Shown here: positions 3,246 through 13,837 of the stretch, one piece after another
Layout of the letters: each line of letters starts with the position of its first letter
Position numbering within the stretch: position 1 is the stretch's first letter
Virus record (IMG/VR): IMGVR_UViG_3300013131_000293
Location: 1-21,277 of that record
Length of the DNA stretch: 21,277 nt
Direction: 5' to 3' (one strand)
Source: a virus
Translations under genes and position numbers: made by a program
The notes under the pieces: model-generated
Seen by the model: only the letters and a program-made list of their open reading frames with translations
Databases searched by the model: none
What the model was told of the DNA's origin: nothing

Positions 3246-3827
3246 CTATACTTTTATATCTTTAAGAGCATTCGTTACTGCTAATGAAACACTAGCAGAT
3301 AATGTTGTTTCTTTCAAATGTAATAATGCAGTTATTATAATATCTATATGAGTTATAAGCGGAGTATCAGATCCAACAGGACCAGTAGATCCAACAGGAC
3401 CAATAGATCCAACAGGACCAATAGATCCAACAGGACCAATAGATCCAACAGGACCAATAGATCCAACAGGACCAATAGATCCAACAGGACCAGTAGATTC
3501 AACAGGATCAACAGAACCAGCAGGTTTATTTTTATTAATAATTTCTTGTAAAGCAGCTATAGTTTTCGGAGAAAGCCCAACTTGAGATCTGTAATCCTGT
3601 ATTTTTTCTTCGTAAATAGTAATACTAAAACATCCATGAGATTTAAGCAAATTTAAAACAGCTTCTTTTATTGTAAGATACGTTTTACCACGCCATCCTA
3701 ATGAAGGATATTCTGCAACCCATAAACCGTCTATATAATATACTAATACTTTAGATTGTATCAATACATAAGATGGATGAGATGCATCAACATAAACTGT
3801 GCGGAATTTTTCGCTGTTCTTACTCAT
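3246..3827 (-). CDS. Collagen-like repeat protein
   Basis: This 193-residue protein has a strong ribosome-binding site (GAGGGG before ATG at 3827). The N-terminal ~75 residues include a short domain (VLVYYIDGLWVAEY, then YLTIKEAVLNLL) that resembles the W/Y domain of the neighbouring small proteins. Residues ~105-152 form a collagen-like Gly-X-Y stretch built from six-residue GPVGSI units, seven in near-perfect succession, encoded by an 18-bp tandem repeat. A C-terminal segment of ~40 residues (ITHIDIIITALLHLKE...) could trimerise it. Collagen-like segments are common in phage tail-fibre and surface proteins; that role is an inference, since the gene lies among accessory genes. Repeat number is probably variable. 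Confidence 0.7.
   Translation of the reverse strand: MSKNSEKFRTVYVDASHPSYVLIQSKVLVYYIDGLWVAEYPSLGWRGKTYLTIKEAVLNLLKSHGCFSITIYEEKIQDYRSQVGLSPKTIAALQEIINKNKPAGSVDPVESTGPVGSIGPVGSIGPVGSIGPVGSIGPVGSIGPVGSTGPVGSDTPLITHIDIIITALLHLKETTLSASVSLAVTNALKDIKV
3370..3513. repeat. 18-bp tandem repeat encoding GPVGSI units
   Basis: Seven near-identical 18-bp units (GATCCAACAGGACCAATA, with the last three bases sometimes GTA) fill 3370-3495. A degenerate eighth unit follows at 3496-3513. The array lies inside the minus-strand collagen-like gene and keeps its frame at every unit, so copy-number change would lengthen or shorten the protein without breaking it. Confidence 0.92.
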
Positions 3828-3845: not shown

Positions 3846-4208
3846 TTAGATGGTTGTCCAATATTCCATAATGATATCAGCGATATCATCAAAGGTATGA
3901 TTATTATCATTATATTGCCAAAGATATTTTTGAGTGTATGGTATTAACCCTTCACTAGTTTTTATTCCTGCCCATACTTGAACACTTTCTGGTAAATATC
4001 TTAGTTCCCCATCTATAGTATATATATCTTTATCTAGATCAAATTTATAATATTTCAGTTCTTTAATAGGAACTCCATGTTCTTTAGCTAATTCACAAAG
4101 AACACCGAGACAACAATATCCTTTATTTGTTTTCAGATAACCCCTAATTTGTTCATATTTTCCTGAACTCAGAGTATCTGCCCACAATTTTGCTATCTCA
4201 TATTTCAT
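3846..4208 (-). CDS. CCLGVLC-motif phage protein, paralogue 1
   Basis: This 120-residue protein belongs to a family frequent in phages. Hallmarks are an N-terminal helix (IAKLWADTLSSGKYEQ), GYCCLGVLCELA at residues ~30-42, a central LPESVQVWAG, and a C-terminal region with a Phe-Asp-x-Ile-Ala-x-Ile-Ile helix. Two paralogues lie at 4718-5119 and 5119-5472. The ATG overlaps the upstream stop as ATGA, indicating coupling. The Cys-Cys...Cys cluster could bind metal, but no function is established that I know of. Confidence 0.75.
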   Translation of the reverse strand: MKYEIAKLWADTLSSGKYEQIRGYLKTNKGYCCLGVLCELAKEHGVPIKELKYYKFDLDKDIYTIDGELRYLPESVQVWAGIKTSEGLIPYTQKYLWQYNDNNHTFDDIADIIMEYWTTI

Positions 4209-4363
4209 TGTTTAGCCCTCGTAAGTTTATCAAACAGAGAATAGATTAACACCAGATATTTTTCTGGTATTTCTTCTATTCCATATTCTGCGATAAATTT
4301 ATCAATGAATTCTTTACAAGAACGAGAGGTATCTAAAAAATCTAAAATTTTTTCTACGTTCAT
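4205..4363 (-). CDS. Small unknown protein (52 aa)
   Basis: A 52-codon ORF runs from ATG at 4363 to TGA at 4205-4207. The peptide begins MNVEKILDFLDTSRSCKEFI and is acidic and helical in appearance. It ends in a 4-base ATGA overlap with the next gene, and its start lies ten bases after the stop of the previous small gene, so it fits the minus-strand operon. Its layout (short N-terminal helix, then IAEYG and an EKYLVLIYSL helix) loosely resembles the neighbouring 64-residue product (FRDTYG, then EEDILVILYCLEK), suggesting a tandem pair. Function unknown. Confidence 0.6.
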   Translation of the reverse strand: MNVEKILDFLDTSRSCKEFIDKFIAEYGIEEIPEKYLVLIYSLFDKLTRAKQ

Positions 4364-4373
4364 AACACAATAC

Positions 4374-4568
4374 TCAATGCATAGTAATTTTAGAACGTTT
4401 TTCTAAACAATACAAGATAACTAATATATCTTCTTCTATAGATTCACCATATGTATCACGGAAAGTAGTAATAAAATTTTCTACAGAATAACATTCTTCT
4501 AACATACAGCGTATATTTTCTATAATAAGGCTTGTAGTTTTTACATAGGCTTGGTTTATTTTCCTCAT
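4374..4568 (-). CDS. Small unknown protein (64 aa)
   Basis: I choose the start at 4568 because GGGGG precedes that ATG at good distance. Upstream in-frame starts at 4640 or 4697 lack a ribosome-binding site and would run across a promoter and a hairpin. The peptide begins MRKINQAYVKTTSLIIENI and ends in EEDILVILYCLEKRSKITMH. It has two Cys residues near the middle and no recognisable domain. It resembles in layout the next small gene (4205-4363). Confidence 0.6.
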   Translation of the reverse strand: MRKINQAYVKTTSLIIENIRCMLEECYSVENFITTFRDTYGESIEEDILVILYCLEKRSKITMH

Positions 4569-4593
4569 TTTTCCCCCTTCATATTTTGAAAAG

Positions 4594-4627
4594 GTTTCAA
4601 GGAGAACGATTAAATTCTCCTTGAAAC
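4594..4627 (-). promoter_or_regulatory. Perfect 13-bp inverted repeat in the mRNA leader
   Basis: Arms 4594-4606 and 4615-4627 are perfectly complementary around an 8-base loop. In the minus-strand transcript this forms a strong hairpin between the promoter at 4669-4697 and the gene starting at 4568, with a short T-rich stretch after it. AAGGAG, a Shine-Dalgarno-like sequence, lies within the stem. It could be an attenuator, an operator for a dimeric repressor, or an RNA-stability element. Confidence 0.6.
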
Positions 4628-4668
4628 TAGTTTCGCTCATGAGAGTACGGAAAGTATACGCGCCCTCA

Positions 4669-4697
4669 ATTATATAATATACTAGGAAGGGGTACAA
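4669..4697 (-). promoter_or_regulatory. Sigma70-like promoter, minus strand
   Basis: Read on the minus strand, TTGTAC (4697-4692) and a perfect TATAAT (4674-4669) are separated by exactly 17 bases. It lies in a gap upstream of the 64-residue gene. It would allow the distal accessory genes (4568 down to 2340) to be transcribed independently of the NAD genes. Confidence 0.65.
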
Positions 4698-4717
4698 GTA
4701 AAGTATTTTTTATCTTT

Positions 4718-5119
4718 TCAAATATTTTTATAATTTTTTTCTATAATATTCGCTATTTGTTTAAACGATTTACCATTATCATTTAATTCTGTCAGACAAT
4801 ATTCTGTTTTGTTATTACTTTCAAACACACCATTAATATTTCGCATACCAGCCCATTCTTTCACTTTTTGTGGTAACAGAGCAAGTTCTTTATCATAATA
4901 ACAAAATATTCTATGATCAGAAATAATATTTTCATTATAAATGGATTTAGTATTAGTATCAAATTTAGTTTGAATATTAATAGATTTAGACTTAGTAGCT
5001 AGATCACAAAGAACACCAAGACAACAAAATTTATTATCCTTATTAAGATATCCTATTCCTTGTTTATATTTTCCTGAACGAAGTGCTTTTACCCAGCGGT
5101 CTGCTATTTTCTTTTTCAT
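4718..5119 (-). CDS. CCLGVLC-motif phage protein, paralogue 2
   Basis: This 133-residue protein (from ATG at 5119) belongs to the same family as its neighbours. It has IADRWVKALRSGKYKQG, FCCLGVLCDLA, then LPQKVKEWAG and a C-terminal SFKQIANIIEKNYK helix. I prefer the start at 5119: GGGAGA precedes it and it overlaps the upstream stop (TGATG). An in-frame ATG at 5134 would add five residues. It carries a ~15-residue insertion before the LPxxVxxWAG motif relative to paralogue 3. The near-identical N- and C-terminal blocks indicate a recent tandem duplication with 5119-5472. Confidence 0.75.
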   Translation of the reverse strand: MKKKIADRWVKALRSGKYKQGIGYLNKDNKFCCLGVLCDLATKSKSINIQTKFDTNTKSIYNENIISDHRIFCYYDKELALLPQKVKEWAGMRNINGVFESNNKTEYCLTELNDNGKSFKQIANIIEKNYKNI

Positions 5120-5472
5120 CACAATTTCTCCCAATTATTTTCAATAATATTCGCTATTTGTTTAAACGATCTACCAATATCATTTAAATTTGTTAAAGAA
5201 ATACTGCGTCCTTTTGAATCGATAAATTCTCCTCTTTGAGAGGACATACCAGCCCATTTTCGTACAGAATCAGGAAGAATTTCAGTATAAGTATCATAAG
5301 AAGTCACTAATTCTTCGTCAAATTCTTTATTTACAATACCTTTTTTAGTAGCTAATTCACAAAGAACACCGAGACAACAGAATTTTTCTTCAATATTCAA
5401 ATTTCCTCTTCCTTGTTTATATTTTTCTGAACGAAGAGCTTTGACCCATTTATTTGCGATTTCTTTTCTCAT
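5119..5472 (-). CDS. CCLGVLC-motif phage protein, paralogue 3
   Basis: This 117-residue family member has IANKWVKALRSEKYKQGRG at the N-terminus, FCCLGVLCELA, then LPDSVRKWAGM and SFKQIANIIENNW at the C-terminus. Its ATG overlaps the stop of the NAMPT gene (TAATG), with AGGA just upstream, so it is translated as part of the NAD operon. The family is widespread in phages but, to my knowledge, has no assigned function. Three copies in 1.6 kb is unusual. Confidence 0.75.
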   Translation of the reverse strand: MRKEIANKWVKALRSEKYKQGRGNLNIEEKFCCLGVLCELATKKGIVNKEFDEELVTSYDTYTEILPDSVRKWAGMSSQRGEFIDSKGRSISLTNLNDIGRSFKQIANIIENNWEKL

Positions 5473-6851
5473 TATCCTGTCACTATCAAATTGTTACGAA
5501 TTTCATTAAACGAGTATAATTTTGTTGTCACACCATTTTCGAATACTTTTACTAATGACCCGGTATATGTACCATCAGAAACAACAGTTTTATATTCATT
5601 ATTTTCTTGTATTAGTGCTAATCTTCCTTTTTTAGAAACTTTATTTTGAGAAGTAACTGGCGATTTATAAACATCATTCCAAGTTTCATTAATTTTAATA
5701 GCAGAACATTTAATAGCAAACTGACAAGTATCTCTATTTACTTGTTGTAGAAGACCACCACCAGAACCAAACGCCAAATTATCAATAGACCAACCAAGAT
5801 TAGTTAATTCGTTCATAATAACATTAATACTTTCGAACGAAATACCATCACCTTGAATCAATCTAACTTTATCATTAAGAACTTTAAACCCTTTAGAATT
5901 TACATATCCTCCAAATTTTTTGTATAGAATATCTAAACATTTAGATAAAACATCAACAGGATTACCAGAATCAGGCCTAATAATCAAAACACCATTTCTA
6001 GCTAAAACTTTATCTTTAAGAAGATCCCCCCATATATTGTCACAAGCATTAAAGATATCATAAGAATCTGAAACAACAGCCACCATTCCTTCAGGATATT
6101 GAACAAGCATATTTTTATACGCTTTAGCTTCATTTTCTTTGCCCCAAGAAGTAATAGTAGAATGTTCTGCAGCAGGAATAGAATTTCCACACATTAATGG
6201 CGGACTAGTATTACTATAATACATCAAAGGCAACAGAAATCCTGGTGAAGTATCTGTACCTTTAAAAGATAGTAGATGTGCAGCACCACCAATACCAGCA
6301 GATTCTAGAGATGTAGATCCACGAAACCCAAAATCATGTAATTTATAATCTATAGATTCTGGTGTTCCAGAATTATTAAGAAAATCTAGAATATTTTTAC
6401 GCATGTAATATGATTGTGTTGCTATGGTAGTAGGATACCATATTTGCATTAATAATGTTTCTAACCAATTAGTCAACCAAGGCACTTTAGGATCAGTATT
6501 TTGTATTGTCATTAAGACATTTTTATTATTAACCACAGTACCTTCAGGAACTGCATGAATAACTACAGGAAGATTGCCTCCATGTGTTTCACATATATGT
6601 AACCATCCATCATAATTAAACAAATCAGCACCAAAATGCTGTTTCCAAACAGCTCTTGCGTAATCTATTTCATCCACAGTAATTGGTTTAATAAGATGTT
6701 TTAATAAAATATATTGTAAACCAAAAAACACAGTTTTATCAAATTTTCCACCACGAGATTCTAAGTAAGAATAAACATTAGTGGTACCAGGAGGATATTG
6801 TTTCCAATGAGAAACTTTATACGAATCTGTTAAAAGGGCTATATTATCCAT
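5472..6851 (-). CDS. nadV: Nicotinamide phosphoribosyltransferase (NAMPT/NadV)
   Basis: This enzyme joins nicotinamide and PRPP to give NMN, the first step of NAD+ salvage from nicotinamide. The 459-residue protein aligns by motif over nearly the full length of the family (human NAMPT is 491). It opens with LLTDSYKVSHWKQYPPGT. The PRPP/nicotinamide site includes FGFRG at 174-178 (Arg177), GTDT with Asp200, and PAAEHST with the catalytic-type His230. IRPDSGNPVDV (Arg292) and the phosphate-binding GDG...AFGSGGGLLQQ at ~335-370 complete it. It is preceded, with a 2-base gap and a GGAG site, by the NMN adenylyltransferase gene; the two form a complete two-step route to NAD+. All key residues I can check are present, so it should be active. 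Confidence 0.95.
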   Translation of the reverse strand: MDNIALLTDSYKVSHWKQYPPGTTNVYSYLESRGGKFDKTVFFGLQYILLKHLIKPITVDEIDYARAVWKQHFGADLFNYDGWLHICETHGGNLPVVIHAVPEGTVVNNKNVLMTIQNTDPKVPWLTNWLETLLMQIWYPTTIATQSYYMRKNILDFLNNSGTPESIDYKLHDFGFRGSTSLESAGIGGAAHLLSFKGTDTSPGFLLPLMYYSNTSPPLMCGNSIPAAEHSTITSWGKENEAKAYKNMLVQYPEGMVAVVSDSYDIFNACDNIWGDLLKDKVLARNGVLIIRPDSGNPVDVLSKCLDILYKKFGGYVNSKGFKVLNDKVRLIQGDGISFESINVIMNELTNLGWSIDNLAFGSGGGLLQQVNRDTCQFAIKCSAIKINETWNDVYKSPVTSQNKVSKKGRLALIQENNEYKTVVSDGTYTGSLVKVFENGVTTKLYSFNEIRNNLIVTG

Positions 6852-6853
6852 AA

Positions 6854-7759
6854 TTAAAACTCCAATCCAAGCATTTTCAAAAGTTTATGGTGAACAGGAA
6901 CAATAATTTTATGTATATCTGTTTGCCATTTCATCCAAGCTAATTCAGCTAAATCATCCGAAGCTTTCGGTTTGCCAAAATTATAATCACAAATAAACAA
7001 TGAAGTTATTATACAATCATTTGTTTTTTTATATCTCCAATCGTCCATTTTTGCTGAACCATAATAAGCCCATCCTGATGTTTCTATCAATCCTACTTCT
7101 TCTCTAAATTCTCTTTTAGCAGCATTAATAAACGAATCATCTACTGTGGAATCAAAAAAACCACCAGGAAATCTCCATAAAGATTCATCAGGTTTTCTAC
7201 CTAACAATACTGTATTATCTTTTCTATTAAAACAAGCAATATCAACTGTAGGATAAGATATAGGTGGTCTGTTCATTATAGAATGAATTATTCCTTCTCT
7301 GAATTCAAGATACAATGGAATTCTAGTTTTTAACTCTTGACGAATTTCTGAAGAAGAAACAAAATAATCTTGTTGAATATATTGTGTTTTAAACACTCCT
7401 GTATAATTCTTAATAAAAGAATCTCTAGAACCATAAAGAATGACTTCTTCGGCTTTATCAACTTTTTCTTTAATAAGATCGTCTAATTTTTTAGACCATA
7501 AATTATCATCAGGAATATCTTTAAGAGGATATATTTGTATGTTTTTACTAACAACTTTCCTTAAGGATTCAATATACCTATTAATTAGAATTTTTCTAAC
7601 TTCAAAACTTAATGGATCTCTATTATTAGGAAGAGCAGGAGAAACGCCTAGAATAAAGATAACTTTTTTATGCTTTTCTAAAACTTGATTGATAAAGCTT
7701 TTATGACCATTATGTAAATATGGGGTTTGAAATCTAGCAACAATAACACCAACGTTCAT
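6854..7759 (-). CDS. NMN adenylyltransferase-Nudix bifunctional protein (NadM-Nudix type)
   Basis: This 301-residue fusion makes NAD+ from NMN and ATP. The N-terminal nucleotidyltransferase domain (~1-155) has VARFQTPYLHNGH, whose HNGH (16-19) is the ATP-binding HxGH motif, and SSSEIR at 135-140, the ISSTxxR-type motif. The C-terminal Nudix domain (~165-301) has PGGFFDSTV (198-206) and REFREEVGL (217-225). The spacing before REFREE is slightly longer than the standard box, and the first Glu is replaced by Asp. Nudix domains of this fusion type usually hydrolyse ADP-ribose. The architecture matches bifunctional proteins such as KVP40 NatV. AAGGA precedes the ATG. It is the promoter-proximal gene of the NAD operon. 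Confidence 0.92.
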   Translation of the reverse strand: MNVGVIVARFQTPYLHNGHKSFINQVLEKHKKVIFILGVSPALPNNRDPLSFEVRKILINRYIESLRKVVSKNIQIYPLKDIPDDNLWSKKLDDLIKEKVDKAEEVILYGSRDSFIKNYTGVFKTQYIQQDYFVSSSEIRQELKTRIPLYLEFREGIIHSIMNRPPISYPTVDIACFNRKDNTVLLGRKPDESLWRFPGGFFDSTVDDSFINAAKREFREEVGLIETSGWAYYGSAKMDDWRYKKTNDCIITSLFICDYNFGKPKASDDLAELAWMKWQTDIHKIIVPVHHKLLKMLGLEF

Positions 7760-10025: not shown

Positions 10026-10163
10026 ATGAGTATAGAAGAGATAATATCAGGATTTTTTATAGGAAGTTTGTTTGTATTTTACTTATATGTGGTATATAAT
10101 AAATCTGAATATGATAAAATGATGGATCAATATGAAAATAGAAAAGAAAGTTATTATAGTTGA
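10026..10163 (+). CDS. Small single-pass membrane protein (45 aa)
   Basis: This 45-codon ORF (ATG 10026, TGA 10161-10163) has AGGA upstream. Residues ~5-24 are a continuous hydrophobic segment (IISGFFIGSLFVFYLYVVY). A charged tail rich in Lys, Asp, Glu and Tyr follows, with few positive charges before the segment. It overlaps the start of the phosphatase gene by 32 bases in another frame. Function unknown; such short membrane peptides are typical of phage accessory regions. Confidence 0.55.
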   Translation: MSIEEIISGFFIGSLFVFYLYVVYNKSEYDKMMDQYENRKESYYS

Positions 10164-10587
10164 TATAGATGGTACGATATCTGATTCAGATCATCGTATA
10201 CATTATATAAGAACAAAACCGAAAAACTGGAAAAAATTTTTCGAAGAATCAAAACACGATCCAGTATATCAAGATGTATACTGGATCATTAATTTGTTAC
10301 ATTTAACAGGTAATACAGTATTATTTGTTACAGCAAGGCCTGAATCAGAAAGAGAACAAACAATACAATGGTTAACTAAACATGAATTAATACAAAAATC
10401 AGAAAAACTCTATATGAGACCTAATGGAGATTATAGAGATGATTATATAGTTAAAAAAGATCTTTTGAACGAAATAAGAGAAGATGGTTATGACCCATTT
10501 TTAGCTTTAGACGATAGAGAAACAGTTGTTAATATGTGGAGAGAACAAGGTATTTATTGTTTTCAAGTAAGAGGTCCTGTATTATGA
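10132..10587 (+). CDS. HAD-family polynucleotide 3'-phosphatase (T4 Pnk C-terminal domain type)
   Basis: This 151-residue protein matches the phosphatase half of T4 polynucleotide kinase/phosphatase (PseT). DIDGT at 11-15 carries the nucleophile Asp11 and general acid Asp13. LFVTARPESE at 64-73 holds Thr67, KKDLL near 108 gives the conserved Lys, and ALDDRETVVNMW at 125-136 supplies the metal-binding Asp pair. It ends IYCFQVRGPVL, close to the T4 ending. The activity expected is removal of 2',3'-cyclic or 3'-phosphates from cut RNA ends. The kinase half is absent here; a kinase-only gene lies at 12367 beyond the RNA ligase. The ATG of the macrodomain gene overlaps its stop by four bases. Confidence 0.85.
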   Translation: MKIEKKVIIVDIDGTISDSDHRIHYIRTKPKNWKKFFEESKHDPVYQDVYWIINLLHLTGNTVLFVTARPESEREQTIQWLTKHELIQKSEKLYMRPNGDYRDDYIVKKDLLNEIREDGYDPFLALDDRETVVNMWREQGIYCFQVRGPVL

Positions 10588-12366: not shown

Positions 12367-12834
12367 ATGAAAATTTTTTATATGCTTGTAGGATTACCAG
12401 GAGTAGGTAAAACTACTTGGATAGATAAAAATTTGTCTTTTATACCAAGTATAATATCTACTGATGATATATTAGAATTATTGTCTGTTAGATATGGAAT
12501 GACATACAATCAACTATTTGATCCTGTTACATATTCTTTTGCTGAAAAGATGATGTATAAAATAGCAGAGTATTATTTTGTTAAAAATGATCCTATCATT
12601 ATATGGGATCAAACAAATTTAACTAAAAAAATTAGAAAAAGAAAATTAGATATTGTACCAGACACATATATTAAATACTGTGTGTATTTTCCTCCTCCTG
12701 ACAATCATATGGAAAGATTATCTAATAGAACAGGGAAAACTATACCAGACAATATTATAGAATCTATGAAAAAAAGTTTTGAGATGCCTTTTAAAGACGA
12801 AGGATTTAGTGAAGTTATTATAGGATATACATAA
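12367..12834 (+). CDS. Polynucleotide 5'-kinase (T4 Pnk N-terminal domain type)
   Basis: This 155-residue P-loop kinase matches the kinase half of T4 polynucleotide kinase. GLPGVGKTT at 9-17 is the Walker A motif. STDD at 30-33 corresponds to the general-base Asp region, and WDQTNLTKKIRKRKLD near 78-93 is the TNL/R segment typical of this kinase family. A lid region (ERLSNRTGKTIPDNIIESM) follows at ~115. The phosphatase half is a separate gene (10132-10587) and RNA ligase 1 lies between. The expected activity is 5'-phosphorylation of cut RNA so that the ligase can seal it. AAGGG precedes the ATG. A related AAA_33-type kinase acting on another substrate cannot be excluded. Confidence 0.83.
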   Translation: MKIFYMLVGLPGVGKTTWIDKNLSFIPSIISTDDILELLSVRYGMTYNQLFDPVTYSFAEKMMYKIAEYYFVKNDPIIIWDQTNLTKKIRKRKLDIVPDTYIKYCVYFPPPDNHMERLSNRTGKTIPDNIIESMKKSFEMPFKDEGFSEVIIGYT

Positions 12835-12870
12835 AAAGATTTATTATCTATAATAAATATAGGGTATAAT
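12826..12870 (+). promoter_or_regulatory. Candidate promoter(s) for the tmRNA
   Basis: TATACA (12826-12831) and TATAAT (12849-12854) are separated by 17 bases. A second TATAAT lies at 12865-12870, with only a weak -35. Either would start a transcript 7-50 bases upstream of the acceptor half of the tmRNA. The first overlaps the end of the kinase gene. Confidence 0.45.
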
Positions 12871-12873
12871 AGA

Positions 12874-12897
12874 ATTATAAGGGATAATCCTTATAAT
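12874..12897 (+). promoter_or_regulatory. 9-bp inverted repeat just before the tmRNA
   Basis: ATTATAAGG (12874-12882) and CCTTATAAT (12889-12897) form a perfect hairpin with a 6-base loop. It lies seven bases before the hairpin at 12905-12921 that I take as the 5' edge of the acceptor piece. It could be an operator at the transcription start, or a processing signal in the precursor. Confidence 0.45.
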
Positions 12898-12904
12898 CAT
12901 ATAT

Positions 12905-12961
12905 CGTTGAAGTTATCAACGAAAAGTTCGGACAGCGGGGCAGTACCGCTCGTCTCCACCA
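12905..12961 (+). ncRNA. ssrA: tmRNA acceptor piece (3' half)
   Basis: Runs from a small hairpin (CGTTGA/TCAACG, 12905-12910/12916-12921) through the P2 3' strand, GGAC, the T arm, the acceptor 3' strand, discriminator A and CCA at 12959-12961. The T loop is GGCAGTA, unlike the usual TTCRANY loop. I believe alphaproteobacterial two-piece tmRNAs also diverge here, but I cannot verify it. The exact 5' end is unknown. Confidence 0.85.
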
Positions 12962-13080
12962 ACAGCATACTACTTGGGAATCAAGGTGGTAACCAGCCCA
13001 TTCGTGACTCCACCCTTAATCGAATGAGTACGATAGCCCAGGAGCGTGGCTAGGAAAGTTTGAAGTAGTATGTTGTTGCT
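12962..13080 (+). ncRNA. Intervening segment of pre-tmRNA, highly structured
   Basis: This 119-base segment separates CCA from the coding piece and must be excised. Its ends form a 14-bp helix (12962-12975 with 13063-13076, one G-U), continuing through most of the CCA into the acceptor stem with only one C-C mismatch. Inside, GGTGG/CCACC and CATTCG/CGAATG are interleaved as an H-type pseudoknot. A separate hairpin pairs TAGCC with GGCTA near 13034-13052. Confidence 0.75.
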
Positions 13081-13253
13081 GGGGGCGAAATAGGATCGAC
13101 GAGCTTGGAAGAGGTAATGGAGATATCCCGTGCAAACTGGGTTAACGTAAGAAAAGCAACAAGTGCAAATGATAATGCACCTATGGAAGAATTCGCACTA
13201 GCTGCGTAATCTTCTTGGGTTTGGCGGTTTTCCTCGAAACAGAAAAACCGCCT
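13081..13253 (+). ncRNA. ssrA: tmRNA coding piece (5' half) with tag ORF
   Basis: Begins GGGGGCGAAATAGGATCGAC, the conserved start. The P2 5' strand and a pseudoknot-prone region (13107-13145) follow, then AACGTAAGAAAAGCAAC before the resume GCA at 13165. The tag has 14 codons and ends at TAA 13207-13209. A 9-bp hairpin (GGCGGTTTT/AAAACCGCC, 13223-13231/13244-13252) closes the piece and probably marks the 3' end. Confidence 0.88.
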
Positions 13254-13270
13254 CTCAAAAGGAGTGTATT

Positions 13271-13360
13271 ATGAACTTAAATCTAGAGCCTATTATGTAT
13301 ATTTTAGCCGGACTAACCATAATAGTAGTATGTTTAGGAGTTATAGCAATTTTAAAATAA
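13271..13360 (+). CDS. Small single-pass membrane peptide (29 aa)
   Basis: A 29-codon ORF starts at ATG 13271 with GGAGTG at the ideal distance. After a polar MNLNLEP, residues ~8-28 are a continuous hydrophobic helix (IMYILAGLTIIVVCLGVIAI), ending in one Lys. It lies between the tmRNA and a strong terminator, so it is probably co-transcribed with the tmRNA. Function unknown; a small membrane-active peptide is possible. Confidence 0.6.
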   Translation: MNLNLEPIMYILAGLTIIVVCLGVIAILK

Positions 13361-13386
13361 TTGTAAATAGTACGAGTACGAAAGAG

Positions 13387-13422
13387 GCAGCCTTTTTGGC
13401 AAAAAGGCTGCTATTTTTATTT
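13387..13422 (+). terminator. Strong intrinsic terminator after the tmRNA unit
   Basis: An 11-bp perfect stem (13387-13397 and 13401-13411; GCAGCCTTTTT and its complement) with a 3-base loop is followed by a T-rich run, TATTTTTATTT. This is a classic rho-independent terminator. It ends the transcript carrying the kinase, tmRNA and 29-residue peptide. The next gene's ribosome-binding site begins only a few bases later. Confidence 0.9.
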
Positions 13423-13432
13423 AAGAGGTAAT

Positions 13433-13837
13433 ATGAAAGTTTTGTTACAAAATGCAGAACTTTTATTATGTAAAAAATTAGGAACAGATACTTTAAAGGT
13501 TTATGTTGAATTAATTGAAGAAAAAGAACAATATAGGTTTGAAGAGTTTTTCTTTACAATAAATGATACATATATCGAAAAAGATATAACTTCTATTGGT
13601 GTTTTATACAAGATATTTTGTTGTGTCAAAGAATCTTTAATAGATTATATAGAAAAAAAGATATTGACAAAAATTGAAGATGGGTATACAATAAACCTAT
13701 ATATTGAACCTTATGGTAATAAAAAACAATCAAAATTTCAATTGTATAAAGCATACTTAGAAAAAATAGCAAAAAAATATAAATGTTCCTTATACGAACA
13801 TGATAAAGGTTATGTATTAAGTTTTGATTTAGAATAA
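13433..13837 (+). CDS. Unknown protein (134 aa)
   Basis: This 134-residue protein has AGAGG before its ATG. It begins MKVLLQNAELLLCKKLGTD. The composition is mixed alpha/beta with a basic middle (YGNKKQSKFQLYKAYLEKIAKKYK) and a final KGYVLSFDLE strand. No family or catalytic motif recognised. It starts 11 bases after the terminator, and no promoter is evident between, so its transcription must come from readthrough or a non-standard late promoter. It precedes the lysis-type genes. Confidence 0.6.
   Translation: MKVLLQNAELLLCKKLGTDTLKVYVELIEEKEQYRFEEFFFTINDTYIEKDITSIGVLYKIFCCVKESLIDYIEKKILTKIEDGYTINLYIEPYGNKKQSKFQLYKAYLEKIAKKYKCSLYEHDKGYVLSFDLE

Follow-up and report, generated by a model that had tools for sequence, protein, structure and literature searches.

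The window analysed here is the whole of a 21,277-base viral fragment, IMG/VR record IMGVR_UViG_3300013131_000293. Its T4-like genes comprise gp32, gp59, the gp2 end protector, the tail tube, the baseplate hub, the RNA ligase Rnl1, a split PNK and a macro domain protein. A tmRNA gene lies among these core phage genes in a conserved order, and the locus was also found in other contigs; the gene is thus encoded by a T4-like myophage. A second, separate IMG/VR record holds a contig that is 99.95% identical to the window over 9,330 bp. In a survey of 210 viral tmRNA loci, gp33 lay at most 3 kb from the tmRNA in 103 of 111 hits and gp59 lay equally close in 86 of 95 hits, always on the same strand. 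Since this neighbourhood recurs, the tmRNA has a conserved place in these phages. A BLASTN comparison of positions 12840-13440 with INPHARED gave no match. Upstream of the tmRNA lie the RNA-repair genes, Rnl1 and the split PNK domains. The latter are separate genes, the phosphatase domain at 10132-10587 and a kinase-like domain at 12367-12834, and the macro domain protein and the Rnl1-type ligase are encoded between them.

The identity of the tmRNA was determined by ARAGORN, Rfam covariance models and direct reading. ARAGORN reported one permuted tmRNA (tmRNA*) with the tag ANDNAPMEEFALAA. Both RF04321 (tmRNA_permuted; 12901-13209, 105.4 bits, cutoff 47, E 5.5e-20) and RF01849 (alpha_tmRNA; 12838-13255, 89.8 bits, cutoff 50, E 1.7e-23) exceeded their curated gathering thresholds. 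The acceptor half precedes the coding half in the gene: its CCA is encoded at 12959-12961, and the 5' strand of the acceptor stem begins at 13081. The 7-bp acceptor stem is formed by GGGGGCG (13081-13087) and CGTCTCC (12951-12957), the latter followed by the discriminator A12958. It contains the G3-U wobble of alanine identity (G13083-U12955), and its position 5 is likewise a G-U pair. The T stem consists of 12934-12938 and 12946-12950. Proteases recognise ALAA or LAA tails, and the tag frame ends in such a tail. ARAGORN, Rfam and the T4-like gene content agree, and positions 12901-13255 are confirmed as a complete permuted, two-piece tmRNA of the alphaproteobacterial type in a phage. A first-pass annotation had described just such an RNA, with its acceptor stem, G3-U pair, T stem, tag frame and order of halves, and had named the Rfam scan as a check; the scan and the direct reading bear it out. 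The roles which it predicted, keeping translation going and attaching a phage-specific degradation tag, are plausible. No intron family, and hence no group I intron, was among the Rfam matches up to E 10, and the insertion in this tmRNA lies at the permutation junction, not in the T loop.

A scan of the region for intrinsic terminators yielded three, compared with 0.7 expected in shuffles, one of which follows the tmRNA (Table 1). The promoter scan of the region gave no more promoter-like sites around the tmRNA than expected by chance. Directly 3' of the tmRNA and before the terminator lies a 29-aa ORF (13271-13360, MNLNLEPIMYILAGLTIIVVCLGVIAILK) with a Shine-Dalgarno-like site and a membrane-spanning look.

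Table 1. Features of the tmRNA locus in window coordinates.
Feature	Positions	Strand	Basis
Acceptor piece: strands pairing with the coding piece, T arm (12934-12950), acceptor 3' strand, A12958, CCA	12901-12961	+	RF04321 alignment, direct reading
Intervening spacer (IVS), 119 nt, predicted absent from mature tmRNA	12962-13080	+	Starts after the encoded CCA and ends just before G13081
P0 clamp helix, 5' strand, ACAGCATACTACTT	12962-12975	+	Pairs with 13063-13076; register as in other phage spacers
S1 5' strand, AAGGTGG (proposed pseudoknot)	12983-12989	+	Pairs with 13010-13017, one bulged C
S2 5' strand, TCGTGACT (proposed pseudoknot)	13002-13009	+	Complementary to 13027-13033, one bulge
S1 3' strand, CCACCCTT	13010-13017	+	Pairs with 12983-12989
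S2 3' strand, GAGTACGA	13026-13033	+	Complementary to the S2 5' strand
S3 hairpin, TAGCC...GGCTA (13034-13038/13048-13052), followed by invariant GGAAAGTTTG	13034-13052	+	Stem identical, loop different in L234
P0 clamp helix, 3' strand, AAGTAGTATGTTGT	13063-13076	+	Pairs with 12962-12975
Coding piece: 5' acceptor strand (13081-13087), tag region, 3' hairpin (13223-13252)	13081-13255	+	RF04321, RF01849, ARAGORN
Tag reading frame, ANDNAPMEEFALAA and stop	13165-13209	+	ARAGORN, direct reading
Intrinsic terminator, 12-bp stem, 3-nt loop, T run	13386-13412	+	Terminator scan against shuffles

The first-pass account therefore stood for the tmRNA, its RNA-repair neighbours and the strong terminator behind it, and fell on the rarity which it suggested. 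A two-piece tmRNA has been published for the cultured phage Melnitz in a study that also counted 53 two-piece calls in phage genomes, most of them aquatic (PMC9004378), and 79 phage tmRNA sequences were given in the work that built the RF04321 model (PMC11915505). We collected 237 permuted tmRNAs from viral contigs. Consequently, the phage two-piece tmRNA as such is already known and is not a new headline. The tmRNA of the window is ordinary for a phage tmRNA and unusual in its spacer; this long structured spacer, its most unusual part, had been overlooked in the first pass. What is new is that the spacer to be removed in the window is a conserved folded RNA, and that the spacers of other phages carry small genes, a tRNA or HNH enzymes. 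Our literature search, which covered open-access papers, found no earlier account of permuted tmRNA spacers that carry ORFs or HNH genes.

The spacer separates the CCA end from the tmRNA 5' end and appears as an insertion in both Rfam alignments. Region 12950-13090 folds at -54.8 kcal/mol (z -4.9), and 0 of 200 shuffles folded as well. The helix P0 comprises 14 bp, starts directly after the CCA and ends 4 bases before G+1. P0 sits immediately against the acceptor stem; for the core within it, an H-type pseudoknot and a hairpin are plausible. Minimum free energy folding, which does not allow for pseudoknots, favours different hairpins within P0.

The core of the window spacer recurs in one other distinct phage, the T4-like L234, which has a different tag; it was found by a pattern scan and a covariance model. 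Between the two phages the identity is 0.73 for the core and 0.60 for the tmRNA body. Reading of the alignment revealed two compensatory changes from G-C to A-U in S1 and one from C-G to U-A in P0. The centre of S2 (UCGU:ACGA) is invariant, so that covariation offers no test of this helix. As just two distinct phages are known to have this core, the pseudoknot rests on two compensatory pairs, and its formation by S1 and S2 is suggested rather than proven. A strict motif search and the two-sequence covariance model returned no further members besides the window, its near-identical contig and L234. Other hits of the covariance model (51 bits at most) were rejected as they appear to match the flanks and the clamp.

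For a comparison across phages the 237 viral permuted tmRNAs were reduced to 210 distinct spacers. Their clamp ends form on average 6.69 of 8 possible Watson-Crick pairs, compared with 4.16 (maximum 4.38) when 5' and 3' ends were shuffled among spacers. Clamp P0 is kept by covariation across these 210 spacers. Of the 210 phage spacers 181 had a clamp of at least 8 bp, as did 2 of the 27 short spacers from bacteria. In 165 of the 210 the spacer terminates in UGAU, so that A(-2)U(-1) precedes the tmRNA. This dinucleotide is reported to be optimal as a leader for RNase P of E. coli, and the enzyme is reported to be inhibited when the leader pairs with RCCA (PMC9433436). The median spacer length is 101 nt, and 85 of 116 spacers (73%) measure at least 60 nt in a viral sample that was unbiased as to spacer length.

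The same anchors were applied to 289 alphaproteobacterial genomes, where spacers of 8-38 nt occurred in 30 genomes and of 60-90 nt in 5; these two length ranges define the bacterial sample, and lengths between them fall outside it. The long bacterial spacers include those of a Bosea clade and of apparent integrated phages. The Bosea clade shows that long spacers can arise in hosts too, a point against the cargo reading proposed below. One Pseudaminobacter genome (G002) contains two permuted tmRNAs, the main one spanning 214 nt and the second (locus L404 on contig C34) 293 nt. The latter has a long spacer of the phage type, identical to that of a 128,860-bp IMG/VR record (L074), and stands beside genes which by sequence reading are integrase-like, large primase-helicase-like, RtcB-like and NAMPT-like; it is probably part of an integrated phage.

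The contents of the phage spacers are varied. An ORF of at least 22 aa with a Shine-Dalgarno site was found in 73 of 210 spacers, compared with 12 in reversed and 9 in reverse-complemented spacers; some of the 73 calls are probably spurious. Three families of spacer ORFs showed an excess of changes at the third codon position, with values for the three positions of 0.17/0.11/0.37, 0.26/0.16/0.39 and 0.10/0.04/0.25, respectively. Thus, these three families are under selection at the protein level. Two spacer ORFs were compared with named phages by tblastn, without a match. Some spacer ORFs stop within the spacer and others only within the mature tmRNA, as in L131, L138, L142 and further loci, where the only stop codon lies in ATGGGGGCGAAATAG. 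Since the stop of the latter lies only in the mature tmRNA, cleavage by RNase P would leave these ORFs as nonstop messages, on which tmRNA itself acts. In Melnitz (MZ577097, our L366) an unannotated ORF of about 54 aa (MFKWLSKTRLVVITRDYFRERNRKADAKIPKYLSG...) with a Shine-Dalgarno-like site starts in the spacer and lies inside the annotated tmRNA at about 1579-1719. Two contigs from a scan for spacers of 320-350 nt were discarded, as a chance TCCACCA lay upstream and the real spacer was a normal one with an ORF.

Beside ORFs, the phage spacers contain several families of structured RNA. In one of them (spacer cluster 5) the alignment, on reading, shows joint variation in the two helices of a possible pseudoknot. 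A complete tRNA-Arg(UCU) lies in the tmRNA spacer of phage L156 (4705-4781); in several other phages a tRNA of this type stands just downstream of the tmRNA. HNH ORFs are nested in the spacers of L003 (3120-3454, 115 aa) and of L407 (2960-3318, 124 aa), a different phage. They are about 50% identical, and both read into the 5' acceptor strand of the tmRNA. The L003 ORF scored 21.5 with the Pfam HNH model, barely over the cutoff of 21.4, and its tblastn relatives include several annotated HNH endonucleases. L003 is syntenic with the window (Rnl1-PNK-tmRNA-gp59-gp32), and its HNH spacer thus occupies the locus orthologous to that of the window. The ends of both HNH spacers are without the usual clamp sequence.

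We consider it probable that the window encodes a working phage tmRNA whose clamped spacer accommodates cargo without any need of splicing, the cargo in this case being a conserved non-coding RNA. One precursor transcript would contain the acceptor piece, the spacer and the coding piece. The tRNA-processing enzymes of the host would remove the spacer, with RNase P cutting between U13080 and G13081 and 3' trimming proceeding to the encoded CCA (12961). The two pieces would stay paired and be charged by alanyl-tRNA synthetase via G3-U; the charged tmRNA, delivered by SmpB, would then rescue stalled ribosomes during infection and add the tag. These steps are expected from the established biology of tmRNA. 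P0 would stack on the acceptor stem, close the precursor, present the RNase P site and hold the acceptor halves together whatever lies between them. As the mature RNA would no longer include the spacer, extra genes could be carried there without splicing; in the relatives these would be the small ORFs, the tRNA, the other RNAs and the HNH endonuclease. The window spacer itself is most likely an independent small phage RNA that acts on its own. In general terms, the spacer may be a splicing-free counterpart of an intron, a site of homing and cargo whose contents (HNH, small membrane proteins, tRNAs, pseudoknotted RNAs) are released by host tRNA-processing enzymes and swapped between phages independently of the tmRNA. 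We advance this generalisation tentatively, with slightly more doubt than confidence.

The alternative that survives best is a spacer that is a processing clamp and nothing else: P0 would join the acceptor halves before RNase P acts, and the interior would be tolerated filler from recombination. The presence of P0 in almost all phage spacers, whatever their content, agrees with this, as do the many phages with spacers of 20-37 nt, which hold little beyond P0 and a loop. Against it, the core shared by the window and L234 is better conserved than the tmRNA body. Other spacer cores likewise reach 78-97% identity between phages with 48-67% identity in the tmRNA body, a comparison from which a cluster with 35% body identity was left out as it includes a truncated contig. 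Together with the protein-level selection on three ORF families, this makes the clamp by itself an unlikely explanation.

Still less likely is a core that acts in cis, as a riboswitch or self-cleaving ribozyme which controls or performs tmRNA maturation. A compact, pseudoknot-like core located exactly between both processing sites would suit such a role, and a glutamine riboswitch has been placed close to the Melnitz tmRNA gene. The riboswitch-like sequence of Melnitz, however, lies downstream of the tag and outside the spacer. Up to E 10, Rfam contained no family other than tmRNA matching within 12962-13080 and neither the glutamine (glnA) nor any other riboswitch in 12840-13440; at gathering thresholds no known ribozyme or riboswitch was detected in the spacers of 20 other tmRNA loci. 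Moreover, the cores differ wholly between phages while the cut sites are constant.

It is very improbable that the core family of the window and L234 encodes a small protein. Spacer ORFs are common in the relatives, and L234 offers a 26-aa candidate with a Shine-Dalgarno-like site. This ORF is absent as such from the window, though, where no spacer ORF passes the filter for length and Shine-Dalgarno site (the copy in our collection, L124, is not among the 73), and the conserved blocks in the L234 alignment look RNA-like, with GAGUACGAUAGCCCAG and UGGCUAGGAAAGUUUGAAGUA invariant and indels between them.

The least credible reading, that the tmRNA is contamination from a host or a host gene that was captured and has decayed, can appeal to ssrA fragments known from prophage genomes (PMC9004378) and is already largely refuted by the T4-like gene order conserved across many contigs, the complete tag and acceptor, the near-identical second contig and the separate lineage of phage tmRNAs. 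This lineage was seen in a tree, a rough guide as it was built on short sequences, that comprised 165 tmRNAs from phages and 56 from bacteria and in which all nearest neighbours of the window tmRNA are phage tmRNAs. The phage/bacterium label changes 6 times in it, compared with at least 44 times with shuffled labels. These few changes suggest that phage tmRNAs mostly represent an old phage lineage and not repeated captures.

The preferred reading, a clamped spacer with a folded RNA as cargo, can be set beside known systems. Melnitz and its relatives (PMC9004378) are likewise T4-like aquatic phages with an alphaproteobacterial-type permuted tmRNA, which adjoins gp33 and gp59. Melnitz shares the clamp register, and its spacer is also loaded. 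In contrast to its ORF, the window spacer is a non-coding structured RNA; the tags differ, and the riboswitch was not found nearby in the window. With the Caulobacter-type permuted tmRNA (RF01849/RF04321) the window RNA shares the gene order, the two-piece anatomy, G3-U and the tag end ALAA. The sampled bacterial spacers, however, are mostly 8-38 nt long and without a clamp, whereas that of the window is 119 nt long and structured. Self-splicing group I introns that carry LAGLIDADG homing endonucleases occur in the T loop of tmRNA genes (PMC11915505). They resemble the loaded spacers as mobile or cargo DNA inside a tmRNA gene that is removed from the mature RNA. In the phages, by contrast, the cargo lies in the permutation spacer, its removal is expected from tRNA-processing enzymes and the endonuclease is of the HNH type. 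A tRNA-Ala in the permuted tmRNA spacer of a metagenomic archaeal bin was reported as unique to one sequence (PMC11915505). L156 with its tRNA-Arg(UCU) is a similar case of a gene nested in such a spacer; unlike the archaeal-bin case, the phage spacer contents are widespread and varied.

If the cargo reading is correct, the ribosome-rescue RNA genes of many aquatic phages also carry hidden genes that are annotated as one tmRNA, and Melnitz, with its unannotated spacer ORF, is a published cultured example. It would explain how mobile endonucleases reside in a removable spacer without an intron, would provide phages with small RNAs whose exact ends are made by host enzymes, and would add structured RNA families outside existing assignments. 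The general pattern that deserves pursuit is that of loaded, clamped spacers in phage tmRNAs, HNH genes included. Since both Melnitz and the OM43 bacterium that it infects are cultured, the idea is directly testable.

Further genes of the window are recorded here as minor observations. At 5472-7759 a NAMPT-like gene adjoins an NMNAT-Nudix-like gene, an arrangement that resembles a phage NAD+ salvage pathway. Three related small proteins with the common pattern ...W.K.LRSGKYKQG.GYL....FCCLGVLC.LA... are encoded at 3846-5472, and a collagen-like ORF with a GPVGS repeat lies at 3246-3827.
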